Below, piece by piece: positions 14,734 through 63,400 of a DNA stretch of 64,000 bases. How positions within the stretch are numbered: the stretch's first letter is position 1; each line of letters begins with the position of its first letter. The stretch is from Niveispirillum cyanobacteriorum (lineage in GTDB: Bacteria; Pseudomonadota; Alphaproteobacteria; Azospirillales; Azospirillaceae): assembly GCF_002868735.1 (NCBI RefSeq), contig NZ_CP025612.1, positions 496,001-560,000 on the forward strand, in the 5' to 3' direction. Both the position numbers and the translations under genes were made by a program. The notes beneath the pieces were generated by a model. That model saw only the letters and a program-made list of their open reading frames with translations, was not told the origin of the DNA and made no database searches.

Positions 14734-14746
14734 GGTCCTCCCTCCC

Positions 14747-15709: not shown

Positions 15710-15721
15710 CACACGTCCTCC

Positions 15722-35801: not shown

Positions 35802-35813
35802 TGTCTCCCGATC

Positions 35814-35981: not shown

Positions 35982-36042
35982 TCGAGTGTGATTGGGGCGC
36001 GTCGGGCGGCATGCCCGCATGCCTGTAGCAAGGAAGCAGCGG

Positions 36043-36954: not shown

Positions 36955-37014
36955 CGGCGGGAAAAATCCACGCCGCATCAAAAGCAGAAAACATTCGGGA
37001 ACAGGAGTTTTAGA

Positions 37015-39072: not shown

Positions 39073-39100
39073 CGATACTTCTGGAAAGAGGGACAGACCC

Positions 39101-40978: not shown

Positions 40979-40989
40979 TGAGGTTGATC

Positions 40990-41015
40990 GGCGGGGTCGG
41001 TTCCCCGGTCCCGCC
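40990..41015. terminator. Possible bidirectional terminator between hyuB and gntR
   Basis: Inverted repeat GGCGGG / CCCGCC with further partial pairing inside, followed on the plus strand by GTTTA. It lies in the 39-base gap between two convergent genes. Weak U tract, so only moderate support. Confidence 0.4.
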
Positions 41016-41017
41016 GT

Positions 41018-44356: not shown

Positions 44357-47300
44357 TTATCGCGTCAGCAATTGTACTGGTCCCAGAAGACCGGAAGGCA
44401 GCAGTTGGGCATCCGCGCTATAGGCGGGGGCCTGGGTGTAGGTGACCTTTTCCCTCCCTGGCTGGGCATCGCCGATCAGGCGATTGACCCAAAGATTGGT
44501 CACCTTTACGTCAATCCGGTTCCGGCCCGGCTTCAGATGGGATGTGATCTCCATCAGGTAAGGCGGATGCCATAGCATGCCCACGGGTTGGCCGTTGATG
44601 CTGATCTCGGCAATGTCCCGCACCACGCCAAGGTCCAGCATTACCGGCTGGCTTTGTTCGGCTCGGCCCTTTGGCAGATCGAATGTCCGGCTGTATGTGG
44701 CTGTGCCGGAGAAGTAACGGATGCCTGGTTCTGTCCGATCCGTCCATGACATAAGCCGGTCGAAGCGGCTTTGGGTGGGGGCACCGCGTTGCGCTTGGAA
44801 CTGCACCTCCCATGGCCCCGTCAGTTCAAGCATAGGCCCCAGGTGTGGGGTTTGCAGGTCCAGCTTGTTCGTCAGGGCGGCTTTGCGGAACAGCACGAAA
44901 AATGCCTCGTGCCCGTCCATTGTCAGCGGCAGATGGGTGCGCCCATCCGAAATCCGGTAAGATACCGGATCAATGCGACCGGCTTCGGCCCGCGCCAGTT
45001 CCGGTGCCTTGCCGCTGATCCGGAAGCTGATCTCACCGTTGAGAGGCGCTGCACTGCGGTTGCTGACGAAATACAAGTCGCCATCTGGCAGACGGCGGTG
45101 CAGCACCTGGATATCCCCCGCCAAGGCACCGGCATCCCAGTCCGGTGTCAGGTTGCGGGTCTTTAGGGCTGCGTCCAGATCGGGGTGAATGCGGCCTGAC
45201 GCCCAGAGCTGATCGGCCAGTATCCGGAACGTACCTGCATCATCGGCAAGGCTCGGCGTGCTCAAAGGTTTCTGCCCCACGATGGTGGCGCCCGCCGCCG
45301 CGAAGGCCGCGATCCGGCGCAGGACAGGTAGTGTCATCATCCGGCTGGAACCGCCCAGCATCAAAATGGGATAGCGCACGCCGCTTTTGCCCACCAGGTC
45401 CCCGTTTTCCATGGAAAGCTGGTTCAGCAGCGCGTCCGCCCCGACAAAGTCGAACGCGTATCCGGCGGGGACTTCGTTCAGCGGGCGCTCACCATAAAGC
45501 CCGGTGATCGGTGCTTCTTCCCCATGGAAATAGGCGATGTCCCGCTGCGATTGCCCCTGTTGCAGCAGGTAGGAGGAGCGGGCCAGATAGTCGGTCCAGC
45601 CCCGCGCCTGTTCGGCCCAGGTTTCACCCCGGCTAAAATACTGGCCCAGTACGGTAGCCAGCGCCAGGCCAGGGACCCGCCCGTCTGTGAAGGGCTGATG
45701 CGGCGAGGTGTGGATGATCGGCCGGTTGACCCCCAGGGCGAACAAGGTATCTGCGGTCGGTTTCAGGTCGCGGGGGGAGAAGGCCCAGGGCTGTCCAAAA
45801 GCCGTGAAGGATTCGGCGGCCACCAGTTTCTGACCATAAAGGTGGGCCACCGATGCCGCACCCTGAAGGTCGGCGATATAGGTGGGCTCGGGCTGTCCCC
45901 CCTTGGGCAGGGTCCACATGGCGCCCATCGGAATATCGGCATGGCGCCGCATCTCCATATCGTCGCCAAGCTGCGGGCGCTGATCCTCCAGCGCTTCGGC
46001 GTAATAGGTCAGTCCCTGTTCCTGCGCCGCCCTGGCCAGTACGCCATAATGGTTCTCGGCCAGCAGTTCCGCGATGGTGCGGCGGAAATCCCAGAGGAAG
46101 CGGTCGCTCGCCTCCGCCCCGCCGATCACTGCACCGGTCAGGGTTGGCAGCCAGGGTAGGGCGTCGTAGCCGCGCCGGGACCGGAATTCGGCCAGCATAG
46201 TGTCGGTCCAGTTCTGCGGCCCGGACTCGATGCTGTCGGAAAGCAGGGCGCGGATCCCCTTGTCCCCCATCAGTTCCGGCCCCACCGCGTCGCGGTACAT
46301 GCCGAAATACTGGGTGGCATAGTCCCCCACATGGCGGGCGTTCAGCTTGTCGACCTCCAGCCCCGTCGCTTCCTTCGGCGCCGGCGCGTTCTGATGCCCG
46401 GTCAGGGAGTAGCCCAACCGGACCACACGCCATTGCCCGGTGGGCGGGGTCCAATCCAGCGTGCCGTCGGACCGCAGGTGACGGGTCACGTCGATAACAT
46501 CCCCCGGTGCCGGTGCGCCACCAACGGCTTCGGCGGGTGTGGCGATGGCGTAATAGTCGGGAACGGTGGCAAACCCGGCCTTTTCCTCTGCCCTATGGAC
46601 GCGCGGGGCGCTGTCCAGGCGGAATTCGGAAAGGCGGTAGCTTGCCGGGGGTGCCGGAAAGCGGGGCATGGCCACACCGGATGCCACCGGGGGCGGACCA
46701 ACAGCGGACGAGGCCTCCACCGACAGGGTTAGACGGAAATGCCGTGCCGTCACCGGCGCGAAGGAGGCGGAGCGAACAGGCGAGCGTGTGGCGGGCAGGG
46801 CGGAGATTTCGCGGAAGGCGACGCCGTCGTCACTGGCCTCCAAGCGGATCAGCGGTGGGGTGGGGGAACCAAACCCGCGCGCACCCGGCTGCCCGACCAC
46901 GACGGAGCGGATGGTGACCGGCTTTTCGAAACTTTGCATGACCCAGGCGGTTGATGACGGGCCACTGAAGGGTAGGTCGATTGTCTCGCCATAGTGCTCG
47001 TCGTTCATCAAGTGGCCGGGAACCGTGCCGCTGCTGGCCGTGAATTGCGCCGGGGGCATGGGATCGTTCTGTGTCCGCCAGGCCAGAACAGCGATATCCC
47101 GGTAGAAGGCCGGTCCATCACCGCTGCCCGGCTTGATCAGGTTTCGCGGAACGTCCTGATAGGGTCCGGCCACATCCGGCGGCGGTGATAATGAAATGCG
47201 CTGCTTTCGCCCCCCCGTAACGGTGGTGCCACTCCATACCAGCTTCTTCATCGCGGCTTCGGGCGTGACCCAGGGACCGCCCGTCGCACTCCATCCGGGG

Positions 47301-47665
47301 GAGGAGGCGATGGCGACGTCCAGCCCCAGTTCCTGCGCCTTTGCGACAGTCCTGCGCAGGGCATCCTTCCAGGCCGGCGACATATAGATCAGCCGTTCAG
47401 GAACCAGTTGCGGCGTTTCCAGATTGCCTTCGAAAAGCTGGACGCCGCCGATCCCGGCCCGCTTCATCCATTCCAGATCAAGCTTTGCCCCGTCGGCGCT
47501 GACATTCCCATTCATCCAGTGCCACCAGACATGCGGGCGTGCCTCTGCCGGTGGGTTGCGGAACTGCTGGTCCAATATGCTATCCGGCTCTCCGGCAAGC
47601 ACCGGGGATACTAGCAGCAGAGTTGCGGCCAGACGAATGGCGGAAAGGCCCTTCGGCGTGATCAT
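44357..47665 (-). CDS. Glycoside hydrolase family 106, probable alpha-L-rhamnosidase
   Basis: A large secreted protein (1102 residues) of the GH106 type. The signal peptide spans about residues 1-25 (LAATLLLVSPVLAG). The N-terminal catalytic barrel signature RPHVWWHWMNGNVS and LDLEWMKRAGIGGVQLFEG (about 42-80), then GLDVAIASSPGWSATGGPWV, is typical. Late parts contain carbohydrate-binding beta-sandwiches (RTFDLPKGRA; LDLGVVRDIAEISINGQPVG). GH106 enzymes release rhamnose from plant glycosides and pectic side chains. Start ATG 47665 has GGAAAG upstream. It follows a tetR gene by 61 bases on the same strand. Confidence 0.88.
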   Translation of the reverse strand: MITPKGLSAIRLAATLLLVSPVLAGEPDSILDQQFRNPPAEARPHVWWHWMNGNVSADGAKLDLEWMKRAGIGGVQLFEGNLETPQLVPERLIYMSPAWKDALRRTVAKAQELGLDVAIASSPGWSATGGPWVTPEAAMKKLVWSGTTVTGGRKQRISLSPPPDVAGPYQDVPRNLIKPGSGDGPAFYRDIAVLAWRTQNDPMPPAQFTASSGTVPGHLMNDEHYGETIDLPFSGPSSTAWVMQSFEKPVTIRSVVVGQPGARGFGSPTPPLIRLEASDDGVAFREISALPATRSPVRSASFAPVTARHFRLTLSVEASSAVGPPPVASGVAMPRFPAPPASYRLSEFRLDSAPRVHRAEEKAGFATVPDYYAIATPAEAVGGAPAPGDVIDVTRHLRSDGTLDWTPPTGQWRVVRLGYSLTGHQNAPAPKEATGLEVDKLNARHVGDYATQYFGMYRDAVGPELMGDKGIRALLSDSIESGPQNWTDTMLAEFRSRRGYDALPWLPTLTGAVIGGAEASDRFLWDFRRTIAELLAENHYGVLARAAQEQGLTYYAEALEDQRPQLGDDMEMRRHADIPMGAMWTLPKGGQPEPTYIADLQGAASVAHLYGQKLVAAESFTAFGQPWAFSPRDLKPTADTLFALGVNRPIIHTSPHQPFTDGRVPGLALATVLGQYFSRGETWAEQARGWTDYLARSSYLLQQGQSQRDIAYFHGEEAPITGLYGERPLNEVPAGYAFDFVGADALLNQLSMENGDLVGKSGVRYPILMLGGSSRMMTLPVLRRIAAFAAAGATIVGQKPLSTPSLADDAGTFRILADQLWASGRIHPDLDAALKTRNLTPDWDAGALAGDIQVLHRRLPDGDLYFVSNRSAAPLNGEISFRISGKAPELARAEAGRIDPVSYRISDGRTHLPLTMDGHEAFFVLFRKAALTNKLDLQTPHLGPMLELTGPWEVQFQAQRGAPTQSRFDRLMSWTDRTEPGIRYFSGTATYSRTFDLPKGRAEQSQPVMLDLGVVRDIAEISINGQPVGMLWHPPYLMEITSHLKPGRNRIDVKVTNLWVNRLIGDAQPGREKVTYTQAPAYSADAQLLPSGLLGPVQLLTR

Positions 47666-47726
47666 GATGTTCACTTTCCAAAGCCGGGGATGGTTTTGCG
47701 GTCGCGCAGTGTGGCGCAGGCGCCGG

Positions 47727-48440
47727 TCAGTTCTTCAGGTAGGAACTGATCATCTTGCACAGTTCCTGGACCACCCAGTCCGGATGCTGCTGTGGCTTGG
47801 TTGGGCGCTGGGTTTCCGGTGTCAGCTGCCAGGCCAGGGCGAAGAAGATCATATGCAGTGCATAGGATGCCTTCAGGTCCAGATCGCCCGGAATGTCATT
47901 CGCGAACGTTTTCAGCGCCTCACGCAACCGCTTCGCGGCCCGCTGTTCATGCAGGTCACCCAGCGTGGCGGCGGCAGGGTCCGTGGCGGCGCGGCGGATA
48001 TTGAGGCGGATGAAAAGCGAGTTGCGCTTCAGTACCTCAAAAAAATCAAGAACATAGAGCTTGATGAACTGATCCAGCGAGGAGGAGCGGTCAAGTGATT
48101 GCTGCTGGACCAGGGTTTCTGCTGCCTCAATCTCATGCATTTCGGCTTCAAGAACCGCGCGGACCAGTTCGTCCTTGCTGCTGAACCGATGGTAGATGGA
48201 GCCGATGGAGACGCTGCCGGTGTTACTCACCTCGTTCAAGGTGAATTCCTCGCCGTCGCGTTCCAGCATCAGGTCGCGGGCGGCGGTCAGCATGCGCTTC
48301 AATGACGCCTGACTGCGCCCCTGGACTGGTTCCCGGTCCAGGTTGAGCAGAACCGGATCGCCCGATGGCACGGAAGCCCGGCGGGATCGCGCCGGGGATT
48401 GTCCGTTTTCAGGCGATTTCAGCTGTTTGACCATAAGCAT
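47727..48440 (-). CDS. TetR-family transcriptional regulator
   Basis: A 237-residue TetR-type repressor. After a ~40-residue basic leader, the helix-turn-helix lies at about residues 50-96 (ARDLMLERDGEEFTLNEVSN, then GSVSIGSIYHRFSSKDELVRAV). The C-terminal ~140 residues form the ligand and dimer domain. The ATG at 48440 has GGAG seven bases ahead. It is upstream of the GH106 gene in the same orientation and divergent from the second TonB receptor, so it probably controls one or both with an aromatic or glycoside inducer; that is inferred from position. Confidence 0.88.
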   Translation of the reverse strand: MLMVKQLKSPENGQSPARSRRASVPSGDPVLLNLDREPVQGRSQASLKRMLTAARDLMLERDGEEFTLNEVSNTGSVSIGSIYHRFSSKDELVRAVLEAEMHEIEAAETLVQQQSLDRSSSLDQFIKLYVLDFFEVLKRNSLFIRLNIRRAATDPAAATLGDLHEQRAAKRLREALKTFANDIPGDLDLKASYALHMIFFALAWQLTPETQRPTKPQQHPDWVVQELCKMISSYLKN

Positions 48441-48857
48441 TGCTTACTCCGAAGACGGCACATTTCGCAACGTCCGTTGCGAGAGAATTTCTGTTCCTTG
48501 ACCCGCCGACTGTTCCGTCGTCGCCGCTTCCAACCCGTGGAGTGCATTTAGGGATGGGTAGGCGAATTATTTTAGATCAATGACTTACGCTGTAACGTCC
48601 ACCCCCTTAGCGGTCTGACGGACTTTCGGGGTAAGGATTCATTCGGGGGGCAAACAAGGGCACTTGACATCGTCCTTCAACAGCCATACTAAAATTATAT
48701 TCCAATTCGGATTTGGCGCAAGAGAATAGCGGTGGCCAAAAGTCGGCCAGTCTCTTGATGGAGGTGAGGTTGGGCCCCGGCGTGCTTCCGGGGCTTTGCG
48801 CCGTCACGCCCGAACTGGGGTTCACAAAATCAAGATAAAGCTTAGGGAGATCCAAGA
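48441..48857. other. Intergenic region between tetR and second TonB receptor gene
   Basis: 417 bases between divergent genes with no convincing ORF. It holds a possible plus-strand promoter (48664-48692) and a 7-bp GC stem (GCCCCGG / CCGGGGC, 48774-48794) in the likely 5' leader of the receptor gene. A GGGAG ribosome site lies before the ATG at 48858. I recognise no known riboswitch here. Confidence 0.5.
48664..48692 (+). promoter_or_regulatory. Possible sigma-70 promoter of the glycoside locus
   Basis: TTGACA (48664-48669), 17-base spacer and TACTAA, in the most AT-rich part of the region. The -35 is perfect, the -10 is poor. It would give a leader of about 160 bases before the receptor gene. 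Confidence 0.35.
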
Positions 48858-51188
48858 ATGAGAACGTGTCAGTCGATCAAGATGCTGCTGCTGGCCTCGT
48901 GTGCCGCCATGGTACCCGGCTTTGCTCTGGCGCAGGCTCCAGCCGCCCAGGATGATGTGCTTGCTGAAATCATCGTGACGGCGCAGCGCCGCAGCGAAAG
49001 TGTGCTGAAGGTGCCGACCAGCGTGGCGGTGGTGTCGGCGGACCTGCTTGAGTCCAATGGGGTCAATGATCTGGCCTCGATCACCAAACTGACGCCCAGC
49101 CTGCAGACCGGCATCGATGACACTTTCTCCATTCGCGGCATTGGCACCAACACCTATGCGCCGACCGTTGAGTCCACCGTGTCGCAGGTTGTCGACGATG
49201 TTGTGCTGGGCATTCCCGCCTTTGCTGCCAATGCCTTCTATGATGTTGCACGGGTTGAGGTTCTGAACGGTCCGCAGGGTCTGCTGTTCGGCAAGAACGC
49301 CTCTGCAGGTCTGGTCAACATCACGACCGCCAATCCGGTTCTGGGGGAGACAAGCGGCTTCATTGATGCCGAGGGAACCAGCCGTTTCCGGCCTGGATCG
49401 AACGGCCTTGGCATCCGCAATCGTGCGGCCCTGAATGTTCCGGTCACGGAAACCAGCGCCCTTCGTGTCGCGGGCACCTATAGTTCCCAGGATTCACTGG
49501 TCCGCAACGTCATCAAGCCTGTGGGCCGGTATGAGGATGATGTTGAGGAAAAGGGCGCCCGCATCAAGTTCCTGAGCGATCCCGGCAATGGCTTTACCGT
49601 CAATCTCGGCGGTGACTACTTCAAGCGCACCGGCATATCAGGTTTCTGGGATACCACCTACCGGACGCTGGGCGCCAATACGCAGTATCGGACGATCCTA
49701 GGCAATGCTGGCATCGTTCCCGGCGCTGACAATCTGGAAATCGCCCAGGATGGCCAGTCCTGGCGTGATATCGAGATGGGTGGTGTTCAGGCGAAGCTCG
49801 CCTATGTCTTCGATGATGGTCTGGAATTGTCCAGCATCTCGGCCTGGAAGAAGATGGATCATTCCTACGCGAATGATTCCGATCAGACCCCGGTCAATTT
49901 CCTGAACGTCAATACCAACAGCACGCAGTATGAGCAGCTCTCACAGGAAGTGCGTCTGGCGCTCCCCGATGATGGTCCCTTTGGTGGACAGGCGGGGCTC
50001 TATTACTTCCAAAGCAATACCGACAATGCTGTGCAGCGCGGCGGCTTCAACAATCTTCCGGCAGCTGCCCTGCCGCGTTTTCCTTTCTGCGTGAACGCCA
50101 CCGTCACGGCCGGGCCGCCGCCGGCTTGCGGTGTCAGCAACCTTTATTTCCTGGGGCAGGATTCACGGCTGGAAAGCCAGGTGCGCAGCTATGCCGCTTT
50201 TGGCCAGTTCAATTACGCCCTGACCGACCAACTGAAGCTGACCACCGGCGGTCGCTTGACCTATGACAAGGCGTCCATCGATCTGGTGGAGAACACCAAG
50301 AAGTATTTCGTTACGCTTGGCGTTCCTAATAATGTCAGCAAGGGCGATGTCGATAACACCAACTTCAGCTGGAAAATCGGCCTGGACTATGACCTTGACC
50401 CGAACACCCTTGTCTATGGCTTCTATGGCCGTGGCTATAAGGGGCCGGGTTTCTCCAACGCATCGCCGAAGGCGGGCGCTGATATCAGTGTGCGTCCTGA
50501 AATCTCGAAGGGGGGTGAGGTTGGCGTCAAGTCGTCACTGCTGGACCGCAAGCTGATCATCTCCGCATCGGTCTTCCACACCCGCTTCACCGATCTTCAG
50601 GTGCAGTCATTTGACGAGGTGCTGCAGGCCAACACCCTGACCAATGCCGCCACGGCGACCACCAAGGGTGCGGACCTGACCCTGCAGGCCCGTCCGATGC
50701 GGGGCCTGACCCTGGGGGCATCGCTATCCTACACGGATGCGAAGTTCAATTCCTACCCTGGGGCGCAGTGCTATGTGCTGCAATCCAATCCCAGCTGTGC
50801 CGTGAACAACACGTTCGATGCCGGCGGATTGCGGGTTCCGCTGTCGGCCAAGTTCACCAGTACGTTGACGGCGGACTACACGGTGCCGGTGACCGATAGC
50901 CTGGATGGTGTCACGGGCGTCACCTATTACCACCGTTCGCCGCTGAATTCCGGCTTTGCGCCGGGGATGACCGTTCCCACCACCGATCGCTTTGACGCCA
51001 ATCTGGGGATCAAGGCCGAAAGCTGGTCGGTCAGCTTGTTCTGCAAGAACTGCTTCAACCAGATCAGGCCCTACGCTATCGGCAATGACGCTGGCGATGC
51101 CGTCAATGCCAAGACCCTGTCTCTGACACAGCGGTTCAACTACGACTCCGTCCGCACCCTCGGTGTGCGCATGGGCGTGAACTTCTGA
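48858..51188 (+). CDS. TonB-dependent outer-membrane receptor of the C-glycoside locus
   Basis: A 776-residue TonB-dependent receptor. Signal peptide at residues 1-26 (LLLASCAAMVPGFALAQA), TonB-box-like LAEIIVTAQRRSE (about 35-47), plug with SIRGIGTNTYAPT and VARVEVLNGPQGLLFGKNASAGLVN, and a barrel that ends RTLGVRMGVNF. It heads a plus-strand gene run with C-glycoside deglycosidase, esterase, GH1, MFS and GMC genes, so it most likely imports a plant polyphenol glycoside across the outer membrane. A Cys-containing loop (FCVNATVTAGPPPACG) could form a disulfide at the cell surface. Confidence 0.92.
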   Translation: MRTCQSIKMLLLASCAAMVPGFALAQAPAAQDDVLAEIIVTAQRRSESVLKVPTSVAVVSADLLESNGVNDLASITKLTPSLQTGIDDTFSIRGIGTNTYAPTVESTVSQVVDDVVLGIPAFAANAFYDVARVEVLNGPQGLLFGKNASAGLVNITTANPVLGETSGFIDAEGTSRFRPGSNGLGIRNRAALNVPVTETSALRVAGTYSSQDSLVRNVIKPVGRYEDDVEEKGARIKFLSDPGNGFTVNLGGDYFKRTGISGFWDTTYRTLGANTQYRTILGNAGIVPGADNLEIAQDGQSWRDIEMGGVQAKLAYVFDDGLELSSISAWKKMDHSYANDSDQTPVNFLNVNTNSTQYEQLSQEVRLALPDDGPFGGQAGLYYFQSNTDNAVQRGGFNNLPAAALPRFPFCVNATVTAGPPPACGVSNLYFLGQDSRLESQVRSYAAFGQFNYALTDQLKLTTGGRLTYDKASIDLVENTKKYFVTLGVPNNVSKGDVDNTNFSWKIGLDYDLDPNTLVYGFYGRGYKGPGFSNASPKAGADISVRPEISKGGEVGVKSSLLDRKLIISASVFHTRFTDLQVQSFDEVLQANTLTNAATATTKGADLTLQARPMRGLTLGASLSYTDAKFNSYPGAQCYVLQSNPSCAVNNTFDAGGLRVPLSAKFTSTLTADYTVPVTDSLDGVTGVTYYHRSPLNSGFAPGMTVPTTDRFDANLGIKAESWSVSLFCKNCFNQIRPYAIGNDAGDAVNAKTLSLTQRFNYDSVRTLGVRMGVNF

Positions 51189-51198
51189 CCCTCACAAC

Positions 51199-51228
51199 CC
51201 GAGGGGGAAGCCACTGTTTCCCCCTCGG
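51199..51228 (+). terminator. Strong hairpin after the TonB receptor gene
   Basis: Perfect 11-bp stem CCGAGGGGGAA / TTCCCCCTCGG with an 8-base loop, 11 bases after the receptor stop, without a T tract. It may be a partial terminator that lowers expression of downstream enzymes relative to the receptor. It ends 3 bases before ATG 51232, which argues that this ATG is not the real start of the next gene. Confidence 0.6.
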
Positions 51229-51267
51229 GCGATGACGGAAATCCTGACCAAGAGGGAGTGCAACGCC

Positions 51268-52185
51268 TTGAGCGCGTTCAAATACGGGGTGTCGCTCTAT
51301 AGCTACACCGAAGATCTCGGTACCGTGATGAGCCTGGAGGATGCCTTCGATCATGTCGCGGGCACCGGCTCCACGGGCATCGAAATCCTGGGCGAAACCA
51401 GCATTCCCACTTATCCGGAGCCGACATCGGCCTGGCTGGACAATTGGTTCGCGCTGCTGGACCGGTACCAGTTGGAGCCGACCAACATGGCGGCCTGGGT
51501 GGATACCCGCATCACCATCGGCCGTAACATGAGTGCGGAGGAGGGGGCGGCGCAGATTGCACAGGACCTGCGGCTGGCCCACCGACTGGGCTTCAAGTTC
51601 CTACGTCCCAAGTTCGGGGTGATTGATGGCGACCTGACGCCCGATCCGATCTGGCAGCCGGCGGTGGAGCGCAATCTCGATCTGGCGCATCAGCTGGGCA
51701 TCGTGATCCTGCCGGAAATCCATTCGCCGACGCCGATCCGCCATCCGGTGACCGATGCCTATATCGCCTTCATCGAACGGACGGGCACAAAGAATTTCGG
51801 CCTGATGATCGATACAGGCATCTTCCAGGACCGCCCCTTGAACAAATGGGGCGGTGGGGAGACGGACGAAATCCGTAAAGCGGCGCTGAGCTTCTTGAAC
51901 GGCATCAAGGTGCCGGTGGAGCATCTGGTCGACGTGATCAAATATGTGCCGTTCATTCAGGCCAAGTTCCACCATATCGACGAGACGCTGCACGACCACC
52001 ACATCCCGTGGGACCGGATCGTGCCCATGCTGAAGAAGCTGGGTTATGCGGGTTACCTGTCCAGCGAATATGAAGGAGCCCGCGATCCCTGGGTGTCGAT
52101 TGAGCAGGTGCGCCGCCAGCATGCGCTGATCCGCAAACTTGAAGCCGAATACGATGCCGCGCACGGGGGGAACATCCATGCTTGA
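51268..52185 (+). CDS. C-glycoside deglycosidase alpha subunit (TIM-barrel, sugar isomerase-like)
   Basis: A 305-residue TIM-barrel protein of the xylose-isomerase-like/AP-endonuclease-2 superfamily, starting MSAFKYGVSLYSYTEDLG. Metal ligands are suggested by Glu150 (VILPEIHSP), Asp182 (GLMIDTGIF), His235/236 (QAKFHHIDE) and Glu267 (YLSSEYEG). The close partnership with a DUF6379-type gene (next, overlapping by eight bases) is the hallmark of C-glycoside deglycosidases, which split C-glycosidic bonds of 3-keto sugars on aromatics. I favour TTG 51268, with AGAGGGAG upstream, over ATG 51232, which abuts a hairpin and lacks a ribosome site. Alone, this fold would only be called a sugar isomerase. 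Confidence 0.8.
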   Translation: MSAFKYGVSLYSYTEDLGTVMSLEDAFDHVAGTGSTGIEILGETSIPTYPEPTSAWLDNWFALLDRYQLEPTNMAAWVDTRITIGRNMSAEEGAAQIAQDLRLAHRLGFKFLRPKFGVIDGDLTPDPIWQPAVERNLDLAHQLGIVILPEIHSPTPIRHPVTDAYIAFIERTGTKNFGLMIDTGIFQDRPLNKWGGGETDEIRKAALSFLNGIKVPVEHLVDVIKYVPFIQAKFHHIDETLHDHHIPWDRIVPMLKKLGYAGYLSSEYEGARDPWVSIEQVRRQHALIRKLEAEYDAAHGGNIHA

Positions 52186-52582
52186 GCGCAGCCATATCCA
52201 GAGCACAGGTTTCCACAATATCGGCCCCGTCGGTGCACGCACCGGCTTTGAGGTCCGCATTCGTCAGCCCAATTACCGCAGCTCCCGCCTCAGCCTGATC
52301 GAAGGGGTCGATCTGGTGATCGACGGGGTAGAGTATCCGGCCGAACAGAGCCGTATCCGCGTCGGCGAGCGGGAATACAGCCATGCCGAAATGGCTGAAG
52401 AGACGGTGGTCCGCCTCTATGTCGGCACCTTCTTCACGGTGATCGTGCCCAAGGTGGGTGGTCTGGCACCCGGTGTCCACCATGTCGCCAGTTCCATCCG
52501 TTTCCGCCACCCCTATTTCCCGCCGGAATTCCAGCCGGTCTTCGTACGCGACGCACGGCACGCGACGATCATTCTGCCTTGA
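52178..52582 (+). CDS. C-glycoside deglycosidase beta subunit (DUF6379 family)
   Basis: A 134-residue protein with the layout of the small beta subunit of C-glycoside deglycosidases. Recognisable parts are TGFEVRIRQPNYRSSRLSLIE (split: residues 26-46), a beta strand LVIDGVEYPAEQSRIRVG, YSHAEMAEETVVRLYVG and TVIVPKVGGLAPGVHHV, with SIRFRHPYFPP near the end. In known enzymes this beta-sandwich packs on the TIM-barrel alpha subunit and helps build the active site. Its ATG overlaps the alpha gene by eight bases (ATGCTTGA), consistent with equal amounts. The family call is from recall of sequence pattern, not a search. Confidence 0.78.
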   Translation: MLERSHIQSTGFHNIGPVGARTGFEVRIRQPNYRSSRLSLIEGVDLVIDGVEYPAEQSRIRVGEREYSHAEMAEETVVRLYVGTFFTVIVPKVGGLAPGVHHVASSIRFRHPYFPPEFQPVFVRDARHATIILP

Positions 52583-52607
52583 TGGCGGATATAGTTGGGA
52601 GGGCCAA

Positions 52608-54146
52608 ATGCGTATCCTCGTCGTTGCTTCTTTTGTCGCTCTCGCCCCCTTTACTGTCGCCGCGCAGGCCGCCGATGTGACGGTGCGGGTGGACACGGGC
52701 GCGCTGGAGGGGGCGGAGCACGATGGTGTCCTCGCCTTCAAGGGCATTCCGTTCGCGGCACCACCAGTGGGGAACTTGCGCTGGCGCGCGCCGGCACCGC
52801 CTACGTCCTGGACGGGCGTACGGCAGGCGAAATCCTTTGGCAATGATTGCCAGCAATTGCCGTTTGCAGGTGATGCGGCCCCCCTGGGTGGTCCCTTGGG
52901 GGAGGATTGTCTTTACCTGAATGTCTGGGCGCCGGCGGACGCGAGCCCGGGAGTCAAATATCCGGTCATGTTCTGGATTTATGGCGGTGGCTTCGTCAAT
53001 GGCGGCACGTCGCCGGGCGTCTATGACGGCAGCGCTTTTGCCCGCAGCGGCGTCATTCTGGTCAGCGCCAATTACCGTATCGGCCGATTGGGTTTCTTTG
53101 CCCACCCTGCTCTCACAGCCGAAGCAGGCGATGGCCCGACCGGCAATTTCGGTTTCATGGACCAGCTTGCGGCCCTGAACTGGGTTCAGCGCAACATCGC
53201 CGCGTTCGGCGGTGATCCTGCGAATGTCACGATCTTTGGTGAATCCGCCGGCGGCCGGTCGGTGCATATGTTGCAGTCGCTGAACACCGGAAGGGGGCTT
53301 TTCAGCCGGGCCATCATGATGTCGGGCGCTGGGCGTCCTGGCAGTGTCATGAGCATGACGGATCGCAAGACGGCGGAAGAAAAAGGCGTGGCCTATGCCC
53401 GTTCCGTCGGTATCACCGATACCGGACCGGCTGGCCTCGCGGCGCTGCGGGCGCTACCGGCATCGACGCTGGGCGATGCAAGTATGGCGAGCCTGCTGAA
53501 ATCCGGCGATCAGTTGATGATCAACCCTCATATTGACGGGCGGTTTGTGACGGATGAGCCGGAACGCCTGCTTACAGCGGGGCATGGCTCGCCCCGCATT
53601 CCGGTCATGGTCGGTGCCACCGGCATGGATGGGTTTCCCCTGGACCGTGACCCGGAGAGAGCGCTTGCCGGCTTCGGACCCAGGGCCGATGAAGCCAGAC
53701 GCCTTTATGCCAGCCCGAATGATCTGATCATGGTTTGGAAGATTGCCGGCGACCGGGGGTTCATCGAGCCGGCACGGTATGTGGTGCGCGCGGCGGCAGC
53801 GCGAAACGCCACCAGTTTCGGTTATCGCTTCTCCTATATTGCGCAATCACAGCAGGCCACAGCCCTGGGTGCCATGCATGCCAGCGAAATTCCCTTTGTC
53901 TTCCGTACCATCAATGTTCGGTTTCCGGGACAGGTGACTCCGGCGGACGAAGCGGCATCGCAGGCAATCCACGACTACTTTGTATCCTTCGCCCGCTCTG
54001 GCGTGCCCACGGCAAAGGGGGGACCGGATTGGCGACCCTACGACCCCGTAGCGGACAAGATTCTGGATTTCACCCTGCACGGCCCCCGTTTCATCGATGA
54101 CCCGTACCGTGCCCGCCTGGATCTGGTGGAAAGCACGGGACCCTGA
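52608..54146 (+). CDS. Secreted type B carboxylesterase
   Basis: A 512-residue carboxylesterase/lipase of type B. Signal peptide at residues 1-22 (VVASFVALAPFTVAAQA). The family N-terminus GVLAFKGIPFAAPPVGNLRW, the oxyanion stretch MFWIYGGGFVNGG (121-133) and the nucleophile Ser213 in TIFGESAGG are present; the histidine is probably in LGAMHASEIPFVF. Start ATG 52608 follows GGGAGG. In this locus it may remove acyl groups (acetyl, malonyl, cinnamoyl) from plant glycosides in the periplasm; the substrate is inferred from the neighbours only. Confidence 0.9.
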   Translation: MRILVVASFVALAPFTVAAQAADVTVRVDTGALEGAEHDGVLAFKGIPFAAPPVGNLRWRAPAPPTSWTGVRQAKSFGNDCQQLPFAGDAAPLGGPLGEDCLYLNVWAPADASPGVKYPVMFWIYGGGFVNGGTSPGVYDGSAFARSGVILVSANYRIGRLGFFAHPALTAEAGDGPTGNFGFMDQLAALNWVQRNIAAFGGDPANVTIFGESAGGRSVHMLQSLNTGRGLFSRAIMMSGAGRPGSVMSMTDRKTAEEKGVAYARSVGITDTGPAGLAALRALPASTLGDASMASLLKSGDQLMINPHIDGRFVTDEPERLLTAGHGSPRIPVMVGATGMDGFPLDRDPERALAGFGPRADEARRLYASPNDLIMVWKIAGDRGFIEPARYVVRAAAARNATSFGYRFSYIAQSQQATALGAMHASEIPFVFRTINVRFPGQVTPADEAASQAIHDYFVSFARSGVPTAKGGPDWRPYDPVADKILDFTLHGPRFIDDPYRARLDLVESTGP

Positions 54147-54198
54147 CGGCTCACCTGAAACTGTTGAACGAAATAAAATGAAAGAGGGAGTTGGAAAC

Positions 54199-55530
54199 AT
54201 GCTCACGAGGCGGCAAATCGGTTTGGGTCTGGCTGGACTTGGGGTGGCTGCTGCGGCCCGCCCGCTGCCCGGTCTGGGGGCAACGGGCCAGCGTCAGTTT
54301 CCCCAGGGTTTCCTGTGGGGTGCCTCCACCTCGGCCTATCAGGTGGAAGGCAATAACATCAATTCCGACGTCTGGACGGCGGAACGTGCGCCGGGATCGC
54401 CCTATGCCGATGTGGCGGGCGATGCCGCCAACAGCTTCATGCTGTGGCCGGTCGATCTGGATCTGGTCAAGAATATGGGGCTGGGCGCCTATCGCTTCAG
54501 CTTGGAATGGGCGCGGATCGAACCGCGTCAGGGCGAATTCTCCATCGCCATGCTGGACCATTACAAGCGCATCATTGAGGGCTGCCACACCCGTGGTCTG
54601 ACGCCATTGGTGACCTTCAACCATTTCACCAACCCGCTCTGGTTCGCGCTGGCCGGCGGCTGGCACAATCCGGAAGCGCCCGACCTGTTCGCCCGCTTCT
54701 GCGCCAAGGCGGCAGCCCATCTGGGCGATGGCATCGCCTCTGCCGCCACCTTGAATGAACCCAATCTGGCCGGCAATCTGGCCAGCGTGCTGCCGCCAAA
54801 GGTGGTCAACTGGCTGGTGCCGGCGGACAAGGCCGCGTGCGAGGCGGTGGCCAAGCGCTTTGGCGTGCCGCTGTTCCTGACCGGCAATAATATCTGGTAT
54901 CCCGATCCCGCCGCCGTGCAGACCCACCTGCTGAAGGGCCACGCCCTGGGCCGGCAGGCCATCAAGGCGGAACGTAGCAATCTGCCCGTCGGTGTTACCT
55001 TGGCCATGGTCGATGATCAGGCGGTGGGCAACGACACCAGCATGCGCGACAGCGTGCGGGAGCGGCTCTATAACCCCTGGCTGCGCGCGGCACGGCAGGA
55101 TGATTATATCGGCGTGCAGAATTACGAACGCGCGCTGTGGGATGCCAAGGGCCGGGTGGAACCGCCGGCTGGTGGTGATCGCAACATGGGCGGGGCGGAG
55201 GTTTATCCGGCTTCCTTGGCCGGTGTGGTGCGCTATGCCCATTCCGTTGCCAAGGTGCCGGTGATCGTGACCGAGCATGGTGTGAACACCCCTGATGACG
55301 CTGTACGCCAACGTCTGATCCCCGCGGCCCTGGCCGAACTGCACAAGGTGATGGCCGATGGCGTGCCGGTGAGGGGCTATTTCCATTGGTCGCTGATCGA
55401 CAATTTCGAATGGGGCTTTGGGTATAAGCCGCAGTTTGGTCTGCACAGTCTGGACCGCCAGACTTTCGCCCGTACGCCCAAGCCCAGCACCACCATCCTG
55501 GGTGCCATCGCGCGCGCCAACGCCTGCTGA
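54199..55530 (+). CDS. Glycoside hydrolase family 1 beta-glucosidase, Tat-exported
   Basis: A 443-residue GH1 beta-glycosidase. It carries a twin-arginine leader (MLTRRQIGLGLAGLGVAAAARPLPG), unusual because most GH1 enzymes are cytoplasmic. The fold begins FPQGFLWGASTSAYQVEG; the acid/base Glu187 is in TLNEPN, and the nucleophile Glu359 in VIVTEHGVNT, where the usual TENG is TEHG. The end has GYFHWSLIDNFEWGFGYKPQFGL as expected. ATG 54199 is chosen for its GAGGGAG ribosome site and the Tat motif. It likely frees O-linked glucose from aryl or flavonoid glycosides in the periplasm. Confidence 0.92.
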   Translation: MLTRRQIGLGLAGLGVAAAARPLPGLGATGQRQFPQGFLWGASTSAYQVEGNNINSDVWTAERAPGSPYADVAGDAANSFMLWPVDLDLVKNMGLGAYRFSLEWARIEPRQGEFSIAMLDHYKRIIEGCHTRGLTPLVTFNHFTNPLWFALAGGWHNPEAPDLFARFCAKAAAHLGDGIASAATLNEPNLAGNLASVLPPKVVNWLVPADKAACEAVAKRFGVPLFLTGNNIWYPDPAAVQTHLLKGHALGRQAIKAERSNLPVGVTLAMVDDQAVGNDTSMRDSVRERLYNPWLRAARQDDYIGVQNYERALWDAKGRVEPPAGGDRNMGGAEVYPASLAGVVRYAHSVAKVPVIVTEHGVNTPDDAVRQRLIPAALAELHKVMADGVPVRGYFHWSLIDNFEWGFGYKPQFGLHSLDRQTFARTPKPSTTILGAIARANAC

Positions 55531-56783
55531 TGAATTTACCGCCGGCGGGACCGATGGTGCCCAGGGCCGGCGAAAACGGGAATGTGATCATGACCGACGC
55601 GACAAAGGCCGGGCAGGGCACGGTGGCCAAAGGCCTCACCCTGATCTATGCCCAGATTCTGCCCGTGATGGCGATTGTTTCGCTGTTTCCCGCCATTCCC
55701 AAGCTGTTTGCCGAATTCGGGTCCAATCCCAATGCCGGTTTCCTGATCCCCGCCATCGTCACGGCGCCATCGCTCTGTGCTGCGCTGTTCGCCCCGCTGG
55801 CGGGGATCATCGCCGACCGATATGGCCGGCGGCGCAGTTTCATCGGTGGCATGGCGCTCTATGTGCTGGCTGGGCTGGTGCCTCTGTTCGTGGCCGATCT
55901 GGGTCTGATCATTGCCAGCCGCGCTGTGCTGGGCATCGCGGAGGCATTTGCCATCACCATTTCCAGCGCCCTGATCGGCGACTATTTTGGCGACCAGCGG
56001 CACCGCTGGACCGCCTGGGTCGGCGTCGCAACCTCTGTGGTGGGAACGGGGTTGATTGCGGCTGGCGGTGCGCTGGCCGATATCAGTTGGCGTGGCCCGT
56101 TCTGCATCTATCTGGCGGCCATTCCCGGCCTGATCATGGCGCTGCTGTTCATCGATGAACCACGCCCCACAGCCAGCGCACAGGGCACCACCCGCCGCCA
56201 ACTGGCGTTCCCGTGGAAGGAAGCGCTGTTGATCGGCACCGTCACCCTGATCAGCTCCGTTCTCTACTATGTCGAACCGCTGAACATTGCCCGCGTGCTG
56301 GATGCCAAGGGGGCCGGGTCATCGACGGAGATCGGCCTGATCCAGGCGGCGACCAGCCTCACCTATATCGCCGGCGCCTTCCTGTATCGCCGCCTGCATC
56401 ACTGGCGCATTGGCGGTCTGCTGGGGCTGGCTGCACTGCTGATTGGTGCCGGACAACTGGTCATCGGTCTGGGGCCGACCTGGCAGATTGTTTCAATGGG
56501 TGCTGCCATTCAGCAGCTTGGCGGGGGCATGGTGATCCCGGCCCTGCTGGCCTGGGGGCAGGCGATCCTGCCGCTGGAACAGCGTGGCCGCGGCATGGGC
56601 ATCTGGGCCACCGCCTTCTTCAGCGGCACCTTCGCCTGCGGCGCCGTCGTCGCCCTGGCCACCAGCCTGACCGGCGGCCTGACCCCGGCCATGACGGCGC
56701 TGGGTGTTGTCACCCTGGTCTTCGCCCTGCTGGCCCGCCTGATCCCGGCGGGCACCCGCCCTACCCGAACCGTGAATAGCTGA
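55530..56783 (+). CDS. Major facilitator superfamily transporter
   Basis: A 417-residue MFS transporter with about 12 membrane helices. The signature loop between helices 2 and 3, GIIADRYGRRRSFIGG, is present (about residues 90-105). The start at 55530 overlaps the GH1 stop (TGATG); ATG 55590 (MTDATKAGQG) is an alternative that removes a hydrophilic leader. Its position between periplasmic hydrolases and a probable cytoplasmic oxidoreductase suggests it imports the trimmed glycoside or aglycone across the inner membrane. The next gene starts 2 bases after it. Confidence 0.88.
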   Translation: MNLPPAGPMVPRAGENGNVIMTDATKAGQGTVAKGLTLIYAQILPVMAIVSLFPAIPKLFAEFGSNPNAGFLIPAIVTAPSLCAALFAPLAGIIADRYGRRRSFIGGMALYVLAGLVPLFVADLGLIIASRAVLGIAEAFAITISSALIGDYFGDQRHRWTAWVGVATSVVGTGLIAAGGALADISWRGPFCIYLAAIPGLIMALLFIDEPRPTASAQGTTRRQLAFPWKEALLIGTVTLISSVLYYVEPLNIARVLDAKGAGSSTEIGLIQAATSLTYIAGAFLYRRLHHWRIGGLLGLAALLIGAGQLVIGLGPTWQIVSMGAAIQQLGGGMVIPALLAWGQAILPLEQRGRGMGIWATAFFSGTFACGAVVALATSLTGGLTPAMTALGVVTLVFALLARLIPAGTRPTRTVNS

Positions 56784-56785
56784 TC

Positions 56786-58399
56786 ATGACCGAGACCGTT
56801 TACGACTACATCATTGTGGGAGCGGGTTCATCCGGCTGCGTCCTGGCCGACCGGTTGAGCGCCAGTGCCAGGCACAAGGTCTTGCTGGTGGAGGCCGGGG
56901 GCCGGAACGAGACCGAACTGGTCAACATGCCGCGTGCCTTCATGAAGATGTTCGGCAACCCCACCCATTTCTGGCATTTTCCCATCAAGCCGCAGCCAGG
57001 CCGCCCGGCGGGAGAGGTCTGGCCCTATGGACGGGGGCTGGGCGGGTCCAGCTCCACCAATGGTACCTGGTATCTGCGGGGCATGCCGGCTGATTATGAA
57101 GGCTGGGGACCGGAATGGTCTTGGACGGAGATTTCGCGCTGTTTCCAGGCTATGGAAAGCTATCGCGGGCAGGGGGCGCATCCCACGCGCGGTCGTGATG
57201 GGCCGTTGCAGGTGACGCAGCTTCCCTACCGTTCCCCTTCCATTGCCGCCTCCATCGAGGCGGGGGTGGAAATGGGCCTGCCGCGGCTGGCCGATATTAA
57301 CACGCCGGGCTCGCTGGGCATCGGCTATACCCAGGCGAGTGTGGATCGACGGGGGCGACGTGCCTCCAGCTACCGTGCCTTCCTGAAACCGGCGCTGTCG
57401 CGCTCCAACCTCACCGTGCTGACCGATACGCTGGTGGAACGGGTGGAGTTGGAGGGTACGCGCGCGACCGGCATCACGATCCGTACCGCCGAGGGGACCC
57501 GCTTCATCAAGGCCGGGCGGGAGGTGATCCTGTCCGCCGGTGCCCTGCAAAGCCCGAAGCTGTTGCAGCTGTCGGGCATTGGTCCCGCCGATCTGCTGAC
57601 GCGGGCCGGTGTGGCGGTGCGGCATGATCTGGCTGCCGTGGGGCGCAATCTGGCCGATCATGCGATGTTTTCCATGTCGTACCGGCTGCATAATGATCCT
57701 GGCTTTAACAGGGAATTCTCAGGCTGGCGTCTGATGATCCACGTTTTGCGCTATTACCTGACGCGCAAGGGTCTGATGGCCTATACCTCACCGGAGGTGA
57801 CGGCGCTGTTGTCCCTTCATGGTCGGCCCGACTGGCCCGATGTGCAGTTCGGTATCGGCCCCTTCTCCATGCGCTCGTCAGAGGAGATCAAGGCAGATCC
57901 GGGGCGCGGCGCGCTGGAGGACAAGCCCGGCATCACCGTCAATGCCATCGCCTTACGCCCCAAAAGCCGGGGCAGCGTCGCGATCCGCAGCGCCGATATC
58001 GCCGACCAGATCGAGGTCGATGCCAACTGGTGGGGCGACCCGGCAGACAAGGCCTTTATGGTGGAGATGGTGCGGCTGGTCCGCAAATACATGCGCCAGC
58101 CCGCCTTGAAGCCGTTTGTGGGGGAGGAGATCGTACCCGGTCCGCGTATTGAAAGTGATGAGCAGATTGCCGATGTGCTGGAATGGCTGACCAGTCCGGG
58201 CGTTCACGCCACCGGCACCTGCCGCATCGGCAATCTGGCGGACAGTGTAGTGGATGGTTGCCTGCGGGTGCATGGGATACAAGGGCTGCGGGTGGTGGAT
58301 TGTTCCGTGATGCCTGTGCCACCCGCCGGCAACACCAATGGTCCCGCCATGGTCATCGGCTGGCGTGCCGCGGAACTGATCCTCCGGGATGCGGAATGA
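56786..58399 (+). CDS. GMC-family FAD oxidoreductase, candidate sugar C3-oxidase
   Basis: A 537-residue glucose-methanol-choline oxidoreductase. The FAD motif YIIVGAGSSGCVLADRLS is at residues 8-25, the GMC signature WPYGRGLGGSSSTNGTWYLRG at about 78-98 (split), the second FAD signature GALQSPKLLQLSGIGP (about 251-266), and the catalytic His in GVHATGTCRIG with Asn in PAGNTNGPAM. No signal peptide, so cytoplasmic. Family members include choline dehydrogenase and C-glycoside 3-oxidases. Being next to a C-glycoside deglycosidase, which needs a 3-keto sugar, it is the best candidate for making that keto group; the family alone would not tell. Confidence 0.88.
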   Translation: MTETVYDYIIVGAGSSGCVLADRLSASARHKVLLVEAGGRNETELVNMPRAFMKMFGNPTHFWHFPIKPQPGRPAGEVWPYGRGLGGSSSTNGTWYLRGMPADYEGWGPEWSWTEISRCFQAMESYRGQGAHPTRGRDGPLQVTQLPYRSPSIAASIEAGVEMGLPRLADINTPGSLGIGYTQASVDRRGRRASSYRAFLKPALSRSNLTVLTDTLVERVELEGTRATGITIRTAEGTRFIKAGREVILSAGALQSPKLLQLSGIGPADLLTRAGVAVRHDLAAVGRNLADHAMFSMSYRLHNDPGFNREFSGWRLMIHVLRYYLTRKGLMAYTSPEVTALLSLHGRPDWPDVQFGIGPFSMRSSEEIKADPGRGALEDKPGITVNAIALRPKSRGSVAIRSADIADQIEVDANWWGDPADKAFMVEMVRLVRKYMRQPALKPFVGEEIVPGPRIESDEQIADVLEWLTSPGVHATGTCRIGNLADSVVDGCLRVHGIQGLRVVDCSVMPVPPAGNTNGPAMVIGWRAAELILRDAE

Positions 58400-60426: not shown

Positions 60427-63400
60427 TCAGGTTCCAGTAGGGTCCAGGCGATGAAGTGGATCGTTGGACGGGTCGATAGTGGAACTTCCTCCATCATGCC
60501 CGAATGGATCGGTCACGTGTAGCCCATCCGAAAGCAGTGCCCCATCAAGGCCACCCGTATCGGAACCGCCGATGTCTGGCATCGGTGCGGCCATCATGGC
60601 GGCCATGGCCGATCCGCCATTGCCCATGTCATGATGCAGATCATGGTGGCCCGCCGGGATCACCGCACCCGCCTGATCATAAAGATCAATGGTGATATCC
60701 CGTATTCCGCCCTCCGATCCGGGTTCCAGCGACAGGCTGCGCAGCACGGACTGATAGACCGACGCATCCGCCGTACCTGACAGGATCAGCGTATGGCTGG
60801 TGCCGTTGAAGCCGCCGTCCAGCAGTTCGATATTGGTGCTGGCGATCATTACCTTGCCCGTGGCCGTCGTCTCCAGATGCAGACCTGCCAGCGACAGGCT
60901 GTCGCCCTGATGGAAGTCCAGCGGATCCAGGCTGATGATGGCTCGTGACACGCTTTGCCCACCCAGCAGGGACAGGTCCATGCCAGCTGCGATCAGAATA
61001 TCGTCGGACAGGGCGCCCGTATCGGCAGTCATGGCGACGGACAGGTTCGCCGATAGCGATGTCCGGCTGTTATCTGACCCTTCCACCGCCTTGGCGGTGA
61101 CAGTCAGGTTGACGGTGCCGCTGCTGCCATCGGGGGCCAGCAGCGATAGGTTGGTCAGGTCGCCCGGCGCCAGCGTCCAGGTGCCGTCATGATTGTCCGT
61201 CCCAGCGGACAGCAGGCCCCCCACCGGCACGCCGGCGATGGTGACATGCAGCGCCTCCGACCCATCCAGATCGGTCAGCGCTGACTGGATGTTCAGCGGG
61301 ATGCCATGGCCGGAAACGCCTACTGCGGCGGCAACATTCAGGCTGGGCATATCCGCTACTGGTAGCACGGTGACATGCAGTTGCGCGGTGACGCTGCTGT
61401 CGATGCCGGCCAGACCGGTCACCTTGGCCGTGACACCCAGGTTGAAATCGGCGTCGCTGTTGGCCGGCGGCGTCAGCTTCAACCCGGTCAGCTGTGCCGC
61501 CGTCAAGGTCCAGGTGCCATTGCCATTGTTTGTGCCCGCCGACAGGCTGGCACCGGTCGGCACACCCGTGACCGTGACGGATACGACCCCACCCACGCCC
61601 AACGCATCGGTGGCGATGCGCAGATCCAGGGGTACGGCCACATCCTCCCGGGTGGTGACATCCAGTGCTGCCAGATGGATGGCAGGCGTTGCTCCCTGTA
61701 CCTGTAGGTTCACGGAAGAGCTGACCTGGGCGATGGAGCCGCTGCCAGCCTCTTCCGCGCGGGCCGTGACCGACAGGGTCAGGTTGCCTGAAACAGTATC
61801 CGGCAGCTTCAGGGACAGGCCCGACAGCTGTGCCGCCGTGACGGTCCAGGTGCCGTTGCCGTTGTTGGTGCCCGCTGACAGAGTGGCCCCCGCCGGAAGA
61901 TTGCCGATGGTGACGGTCAACGTCTCTGACCCGTCGGTATCGACCAGCGCACTGTTCAGGTTCAAGGCCACCGTCGCCCCCTGCTGCACCGACAGGGTTG
62001 ATGTCGGCACGGTCAGGGTGGGCGTGTCGGCCACACCTGCCACCGCGACGGACAGGTTGCCACTGACGCTGACCGCGTTGGCCGTGCCATCCTTCGCCGT
62101 GGCGGAGACACCCAGGGTCAGAGTGCCCGAATAATCCGCCGGCGGGGTGATGGTCAGTCCCGACAGATCCGCCGCCGTCAGCGACCAGACACCCCCACCC
62201 AGGGAGGCGCCATGGTTCAGCGTAGCGCCCGCCGGCACACCGGTGATCTGAATGCCGCTGATGCTTTCCGATCCGTCCGTGTCGCCCAACGCCACCCCGA
62301 CATTCAGGGCGATGGCGCTGCCTTCGCTGCCGCTGGCCTTGGCCAAGGTGAGGATGGGCGTATCGGTCATGGGCGCAATGGTGGCCGAAACGCTCTTGAG
62401 GTTCAGGTTGTAATTTCCCTCTAACTCAGAGGCGACGGCCCCAACCTGGAAATTGATGGTGCCGCTGAAATTGGCGGGTGGGTTCAGTTTTAGCCCCACC
62501 GCCTCTGCCGCCGTCACCGACCAGGTGCCCGTGCCGGCATTGTAGCGGCCCGCCGACAGAGTGGTCCCCGCCGGCAACCCCTTCACCACGAAGGACAGGG
62601 CTTCCGATCCGTCCAGATCGCCCAGCACACCACTCAGCGACAGGGCCACGGCCTGATCTTCCGTTCCGGCAGCGGCAGAAAAGGTGACGGTCGGCAGATC
62701 GGCCACGCCCTCGACATTGACGTTCAGCAGGCCGATCTGCGTGGTGATGCCCAGGACCTTCACTGATATGCCCAACTGGAAATCACTGCTGTCGTTGGTT
62801 GGCGGCGTGATCTTCAGCGTGGACAGCAGGCTTTGCCCCACGGTCCAGGTGCCATCGGCATTCTTGGTGCCCGCTGAAAGCGTCGCCCCCGCCGGCACGC
62901 CGCCGATAGTGACGCTCAACGCGCCCAGCAGGTTGAGGCTGACTAGACTGGTGCCGATGGTGATCGACGTATCCTCCAGCCCGTTAATGGCCGGAAGCAG
63001 CAGACCGGTTAGCACCTGCGCCACCTGTGCCGCCACGCTGACATTCAGCGTCTGCGACACCGAATTGGTTGATCCGCCCGCTGTGCTGGACTGTGCCGTC
63101 ACAGTGATGGGCAGGTTGCCATTGAAATTCAGGGGCGGCGTGATGGTCAGGCCGGTCAGCTGACCGGGCAGGACAGTCCAGGAACCGTCGCCATTATTCA
63201 CCCCCGCTGATAGACGTGCCCCGTTGGGGATGCCGGACAGCAGGTAGGTCAGGCTCTCCGAACCTCCCAGATCCGAAAGGGCACCTGAGATGGTCAGCGG
63301 GATGGCTGCGTGATAGGCGCCCGCCACATTGGCAACGGCCAGCGTCGGCAGATCCGCCGCCGCGCTCATCTGCACGGCCAGACTACCATTCACGGTCAGC

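Follow-up and report, generated by a model that had tools for sequence, protein, structure and literature searches.

A predicted C-glycoside deglycosidase with uptake and trimming genes in Niveispirillum cyanobacteriorum

Gene content of the locus and identity of the deglycosidase

The stretch of DNA analyzed here (the window, 64,000 nucleotides; G000:C2:496001-560000) belongs to the 6.05-Mb genome of Niveispirillum cyanobacteriorum and carries a locus with the alpha and beta subunits of a C-glycoside deglycosidase (CGD). A closely spaced run of seven plus-strand genes (48858-58399) encodes a TonB-dependent receptor, the two CGD subunits, a carboxylesterase, a GH1 beta-glucosidase, an MFS transporter, and a GMC oxidoreductase; the genes for a TetR-family regulator and a GH106 rhamnosidase lie divergently on the minus strand (Table 1). 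G000 denotes the organism's own genome, other G numbers denote compared genomes, L numbers mapped loci, and C1 and C2 contigs. Open reading frames and Pfam matches show that the genes named in an earlier note on this DNA are all real and lie near where it placed them, and that genes for glycoside uptake and trimming (TonB, esterase, GH1, MFS, and GH106) do surround the CGD.

Table 1. Features of the window and of the second CGD locus
Feature	Coordinates (window unless stated)	Strand	Basis or remark
Mg-chelatase BchH-type protein	552-4325
Reaction-centre genes	14798-16480 (G000:C2:510798-512480)
GH106 alpha-L-rhamnosidase	44357-47674	-	Pfam PF17132, 955 bits; NCBIfam rhamnoside_JR above cut-off
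TetR-family regulator	47727-48440	-	Pfam TetR_N; orthologue in the same place in 4 relatives
Promoter-like TTGACA-N17-TACTAA and conserved block 48684-48708	48664-48708	+	function putative
TonB-dependent receptor	48858-51188	+	Pfam barrel 132 bits, plug 48 bits
CGD alpha subunit, glutamine type	51232-52185	+	Pfam AP_endonuc_2, PDB matches, and residues
CGD beta subunit	52178-52582	+	Pfam CGDB PF19906, 109 bits
Carboxylesterase type B, N-terminal signal peptide (by eye)	52608-54146	+	Pfam COesterase, 357 bits
GH1 beta-glucosidase, twin-arginine translocation (Tat)-like signal (by eye)	54199-55530	+	Pfam GH1, 182 bits; best PDB match 4r27
MFS transporter	55530-56783	+	Pfam MFS_1, 124 bits
GMC oxidoreductase, choline-dehydrogenase type	56786-58399	+	NCBIfam PRK02106, 429 bits (cut-off 605); best PDB match 8b7s
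Second CGD locus (L076, L003)	C2:630791-651370		outside the window

The assignment of the two subunits to the CGD family, suggested in the earlier note from a small DUF6379-type gene, is firm at the level of sequence comparison. The match of the beta subunit to PF19906 ("C-glycoside deglycosidase beta subunit") spans the whole model (positions 1-112 of 112), with an E value of 1.1e-31 and 109 bits against a cut-off of 27.6. A chance match can be discounted, since none of 14 control genomes has a PF19906 match and, of the 82 genomes in the organism's taxonomic family, 71 lack the domain and 11 have it (the own genome counted). All eight distinct sequences matched by the alpha subunit in the PDB at an E value of 1e-3 carry entry titles that identify them as CGD proteins, and the subunit shows the TIM-barrel fold of CGDs. 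The alpha and beta genes, which are adjacent or fused in relatives, are adjacent here, their open reading frames sharing 8 bp (ATGCTTGA). The extent of the beta gene and the overlap were given correctly in the earlier note, but the alpha gene starts at 51232, the previously proposed start at 51268 being an in-frame TTG.

The metal site of CGDs is described as Glu147, Asp179, His269, Lys271, and Glu305 in AgCGD2 numbering (PMC8563793). Alignment of the window alpha subunit (E162, H164, D194, Q243, K245, E279, and E281) shows four of these five ligands retained and His269 replaced by Gln243; a glutamine occupies this position in 41 of 76 aligned rows, among them the deposited CGD 8qrz. The catalytic residues His149 and Glu307 correspond to H164 and E281 and are retained in all 76 rows. 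Tyr33 of the beta subunit, paired by an alignment offset of 6 with Tyr39 of PuCGE beta, a requirement for C-C cleavage, is likewise a tyrosine in 76 of 76 rows. In the tree, the window alpha subunit falls into a CGD branch that is sister to the gut enzyme EuCGD, and every sequence seen in this glutamine-type branch carries glutamine instead of the metal-ligand histidine. The window pair is predicted to be a 3-keto-C-glycoside lyase.

The GH106 protein, the sole GH106 match in the genome, ends in a GH2-like sugar-binding domain and begins with a segment that by eye resembles a signal. The GH1 protein carries the motifs TLNEPN and TEHGV, and its stop codon overlaps the MFS start codon by one base. 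The promoter-like element begins 194 bp 5' of the TonB gene, and its 25-bp block is identical in the window and four aligned relatives. An 18-bp palindrome (48465-48482) adjoining the TetR gene, intact in three of five aligned sequences (window counted), is a possible TetR operator. Rfam at gathering thresholds and a tRNA scan gave no matches in the window. Farther out, genes for a CoA-transferase III, hydantoinase A and B, and a GntR/FCD regulator are followed by a second TonB receptor (42002-44311; whole region 34554-44311), and 60427-63987 encodes a 1,186-residue protein with weak cadherin/Big-like domain matches.

Conservation among relatives

Co-occurrence of these genes in relatives, on which the earlier note had made its proposal depend, is present in the gene maps of related loci. 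CGDB is found in 5 of the 10 other genus members, each with two copies, one per type. Among the relatives sharing this CGD type are Niveispirillum sp. SYP-B3756, N. irakense DSM 11586, Azospirillum sp. RU38E, the alphaproteobacterium AAP38, and a Niveispirillum metagenome-assembled genome. The set of TetR, TonB, alpha, beta, and GH106 is kept in G070, G071, G072, and G075; GH1, MFS, and GMC are kept in G070, G071, and G075, the contig of G072 ending there with a partial GMC gene on another contig. The esterase is kept in G070 and G075 and was not found in the G071 operon, and a Gfo and a hydratase gene are inserted between GH1 and MFS in G071 and G075. In the N. irakense locus (L021), alpha and beta are accompanied by TonB, MFS, a Gluconate_2-dh3 (dh3) subunit, and a gene of GlycDH type (69%); no GH1 was found in this stretch, and neither GH106 nor a close window-type GMC was found genome-wide. 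In Nitrospirillum (L020), the genes mapped are alpha, beta, MFS, and a partial match to the esterase.

Among the 39 loci of the related-locus search, 19 other proteobacterial loci were mapped (L020, L021, and L042-L058), several of them cut by contig ends. Beside this CGD type they show a TonB homologue of 43 to 57% in nine cases and a GH1 homologue of 60 to 64% in five; GH106 occurs in five, GlycDH with dh3 in five (L021, L046, L047, L049, and L056), and Gfo with hydratase at 60 to 77% in L049 only. In a survey of 23 chosen genomes with 37 GH106 matches (fragments counted), GH106 lies inside the ~20-kb CGD locus in 11, where chance placement expects 0.148 genes; five of these genomes belong to Niveispirillum and three to close members of Novosphingobium, leaving about five independent lineages. 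One of these lineages, L065, was picked because its map already showed GH106, and it is the only one of 16 actinobacterial loci with a full-length match. The earlier assignment of the rhamnosidase to this gene set is borne out by its recurrence with CGD. In Duganella guangzhouensis (L055:258-14729), genes for L-rhamnose isomerase and the rhamnose-binding protein RhaS adjoin the CGD alpha/beta-GH106 set, which together with the GH106-CGD link backs a rhamnosylated substrate. Fourteen of the 16 actinobacterial loci (L060-L073 of L060-L075) pair a glutamine-type alpha, mostly fused to beta, with at least one CGD alpha gene from other branches.

A photosynthesis cluster does lie beside the locus, as the earlier note had it, but its relevance to the CGD was not upheld. 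Reaction-centre genes occur in 8 of 11 genus members and CGD in 6 of 11; four genomes have both, two have CGD only, and four have reaction-centre genes only, and a link was rejected for want of association. The two sets were seen to share a contig only in G000 and G070; the G072 and G075 assemblies are fragmented into many contigs. The photosynthesis setting looks incidental.

The second CGD locus and the enzyme for C3 oxidation

The published pathway requires an oxidation at C3, an elimination, a hydration, and a reduction (PMC10628242 and PMC13273386). The window supplies the elimination step and one choline-dehydrogenase-type GMC. A hydratase and a 3-keto-sugar reductase were not found in the window locus; with the thresholds applied, the genome has its sole copies at C2:639576-641794. 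No DgpA, CarA/PurA, or GlycDH-type C3 oxidoreductase was found among the scanned window proteins, which cover part of the window open reading frames, with CarA/PurA sequences not used as queries. GlycDH homologues in the genome at 1e-60 are restricted to C2:630791 and C1:778637. The locus is not complete, contrary to the earlier note, as the hydratase, the Gfo, and both GlycDH-type genes all lie outside the window.

A second CGD locus, with the second CGDB gene of the genome at C2:643107, lies about 83 to 95 kb from the window locus on the same contig. It contains genes for TetR, MFS, Gfo, the hydratase, a second alpha and beta pair (alpha2 and beta2), more MFS proteins, and GH3. Ahead of these lie a TonB receptor gene and an esterase gene, along with genes for a dh3 subunit and for a GMC that differs in type from the window one. 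The best PDB match of alpha2 is the Deinococcus aerius CGD 8qvc. The hydratase matches PDB entry 8ro4, named 2-hydroxy-3-keto-glucal hydratase, with 610 bits. The second-locus GMC matches large subunits of fructose and glucose dehydrogenases, with weak matches to pyranose oxidases (48.8 bits to the pyranose-oxidase model, below cut-off) and to 7qf8, presumably PsG3Ox, a G3Ox entry. This GMC is the flavin adenine dinucleotide (FAD) dehydrogenase encoded at C2:630791-632473, beside the dh3 subunit gene. The pair resembles the make-up of GlycDH, known here by description only, which was expressed as a flavoprotein together with a small subunit of the Tat type (PMC10628242). Another GlycDH-type and dh3 pair, 49% identical, lies at C1:778218-780337. 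The second-locus Gfo is treated as the reductase, its direction being predicted, because the Gfo of the Agrobacterium operon is described as the final reductase (PMC10628242). A role of Gfo as a DgpA-like C3 oxidase was rejected: the Gfo proteins of the second locus and L025 match DgpA chains weakly (26.6 to 43.5 bits), with 3v5n as the best match. The second locus also holds a luciferase-like monooxygenase with a flavin mononucleotide reductase; the monooxygenase could act on the aglycone.

The second-locus dehydrogenase, hydratase, and Gfo probably serve the window CGD in trans. A GlycDH-type gene of at least 67% is present in all 11 genomes with CGD and in none of 7 without it (the 18 genomes of the two CGD-bearing genera; G073 has pieces of 46 to 54%), giving a p value of 3.1e-5 under the assumption of independent genomes, which does not hold. 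Hydratase and Gfo occur without CGD in G061, G064, and G066. The idea of a single hydratase/Gfo pair per genome, placed at one locus or the other, was ruled out by G071 with two pairs and G075 with three.

The earlier note had named the window GMC as the C3 oxidase, which is possible, yet it is the weaker candidate. If it oxidized the sugar at C3, the operon would be autonomous through the eliminase step and borrow only hydratase and reductase, an arrangement considered rather unlikely, though a serious contender. The GMC gene stands behind the MFS gene in this operon and is 89 to 97% conserved in G070, G071, and G075, and in L082 a 55% homologue is flanked by an MFS gene and a hydratase/Gfo pair; the C3 oxidases known from soil bacteria belong to the GMC superfamily (PMC10646112). 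However, the window enzyme is of the choline-dehydrogenase type, and its best PDB match is a chloramphenicol-inactivating oxidoreductase. Flavin-dependent C3 oxidases have been assigned to the pyranose-oxidase family (PMC10628242), whose model is matched by the second-locus GMC but is not among the nine NCBIfam matches of the window GMC at 1e-3. Moreover, two of the seven Azospirillaceae genomes with the same CGD type lack a close copy (G068 none at 1e-60, G060 38%), and a window-type GMC is listed in none of the 19 other proteobacterial loci. The second-locus dehydrogenase is ranked above the window GMC as the most likely enzyme for C3 oxidation.

The L082 cluster (G075:C51:61000-80999, 3796-15418) lacks CGD and encodes a FAD_oxidored protein, an IolE-like TIM barrel, MFS_2, GMC, hydratase, Gfo, and a TonB receptor. 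It may represent a further 3-keto-glycoside pathway that uses a different eliminase. As a candidate O-glycoside eliminase, its AP_endonuc_2 protein has three PDB matches at 0.01, to IolE-like proteins or a putative isomerase, 8bvk not being among them.

Proposed pathway and alternative activities

Taken together, the seven plus-strand genes with the divergent TetR and GH106 genes are best read as a module for uptake and trimming of a plant glycoside with its own CGD, for which C3 oxidation, hydratase, and Gfo come from the second locus; this reading is held with moderate confidence. In the predicted order and compartments, the TonB receptor would bring a decorated aryl glycoside into the periplasm, where the exported esterase, GH1, and GH106 would strip acyl, O-glucosyl, and rhamnosyl groups. 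The C-glucoside left over would be oxidized at the sugar C3, most likely by the FAD dehydrogenase of the second locus with its dh3 subunit, and the MFS transporter would carry the glycoside or 3-keto-glycoside into the cytoplasm. Here, the CGD may cleave the C-C bond by metal-assisted beta-elimination, yielding the aglycone and 2-hydroxy-3-keto-glucal, which the second-locus hydratase would convert to 3-keto-glucose and the Gfo reductase to glucose. A C6-glucosyl flavone bearing rhamnose is a first guess at the substrate, because EuCGD, the nearest solved enzyme with known specificity, is described as acting on C6- and not on C8-glycosides.

Several observations weigh against this scheme. The MFS protein scores best, weakly, against drug-efflux families, its role in import being predicted. 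Alanine mutants at the His269 position, occupied by glutamine in the window alpha subunit, are strongly reduced in activity in PuCGD and MiCGD (PMC8563793). The conservation of the GMC gene in the window-type operons of Niveispirillum and its L082 homologue with hydratase and Gfo favor a local oxidase, and the GlycDH homologue on C1, with its own dh3 gene, could serve instead. The co-occurrence of GlycDH fits either CGD locus and does not single out the window enzyme, and a local GlycDH was not seen in 14 of the 19 other proteobacterial loci, some of them cut by contig ends.

A different activity of the window CGD also has to be weighed. The glutamine-type clade could in practice be a 3-keto-O-glycoside eliminase working beside GH1, with C-C cleavage lost or never useful. 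PuCGE, a known CGD, also cleaves 3-keto-O-glucosides (PMC10628242), one metal ligand of the window alpha subunit is altered, and O-linked sugars are the targets of GH1 and GH106. The invariant beta tyrosine needed for C-glycosides would not be required by an O-only eliminase, however, and the same-clade Microbacterium testaceum enzyme 8qrz is deposited, by title, as a C-glucosyl deglycosidase; this alternative is improbable. An ordinary sugar-isomerase or sugar-epimerase function of the pair, in a general aryl-glycoside locus, is extremely unlikely beside the CGD-only PDB matches of alpha and the full-length PF19906 match of beta, even with the broad AP_endonuc_2 domain as the only Pfam domain of alpha and no NCBIfam match for either subunit.

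The preferred reading, a CGD module supplied in trans, can be extended tentatively. An EuCGD-like, glutamine-type CGD and a Deinococcus-like CGD of different regiospecificity may share one membrane-linked C3 dehydrogenase, hydratase, and reductase, the window adding outer-membrane and periplasmic trimming that would open up rhamnosylated, acylated flavone C-glycosides. The glutamine ligand might tune metal use or the choice between C6 and C8.

Comparison with known systems

C-Glycosides resist hydrolysis, and the locus would represent a Gram-negative, outer-membrane-to-aglycone version of their cleavage in named strains such as N. irakense DSM 11586 and AAP38. It offers a natural Gln-for-His exchange in the metal site for study, two CGDs in one cell whose division of labor can be probed, and a recurrent CGD-GH106 link that points to rhamnosylated substrates. 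Enzymes breaking C-glycosides are described mainly from gut anaerobes and Actinobacteria (PMC8563793 and PMC12724307), and homologues of CGD in Proteobacteria (PMC8563793) and of PurABC in Pseudomonadota (PMC12724307) were noted earlier. None of the titles among the literature matches listed reports a locus of this kind from Niveispirillum or from any other phototroph, and no paper combining C-glycoside, TonB, and deglycosylation was found in the literature covered; this does not establish absence from print.

The C-glucosyl deglycosidase of M. testaceum (8qrz and 8un2), for which no paper was among the matches listed, shares the glutamine at the His269 position with the window alpha subunit but has beta and alpha fused in one chain, in contrast to the two overlapping genes of the window, alpha preceding beta. 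EuCGD (DfgA-DfgB from Eubacterium cellulosolvens; 7bvs and 7dre), from the sister branch, aligns to the window alpha subunit in one stretch, whereas a gap is present against 7bvr and 8qvc. It differs in its His ligand and in coming from an intestinal bacterium, and the available part of its description mentions no TonB/GH106/GH1 module. The D. aerius CGD 8qvc also has the His ligand and shows 31% identity to the window alpha subunit. The GlycDH-OGE-HYD-Gfo operon of Agrobacterium tumefaciens follows the same four-step logic and has counterparts in the second locus, namely a Gfo oxidoreductase and a hydratase whose name denotes the same reaction, but the Agrobacterium eliminase, likened here by description only, is O-glycoside specific and unrelated in sequence to CGD (PMC10628242). 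Compared with these systems, the new feature is a split glutamine-type CGD set in a Gram-negative module for uptake and trimming that probably depends on a second CGD locus.

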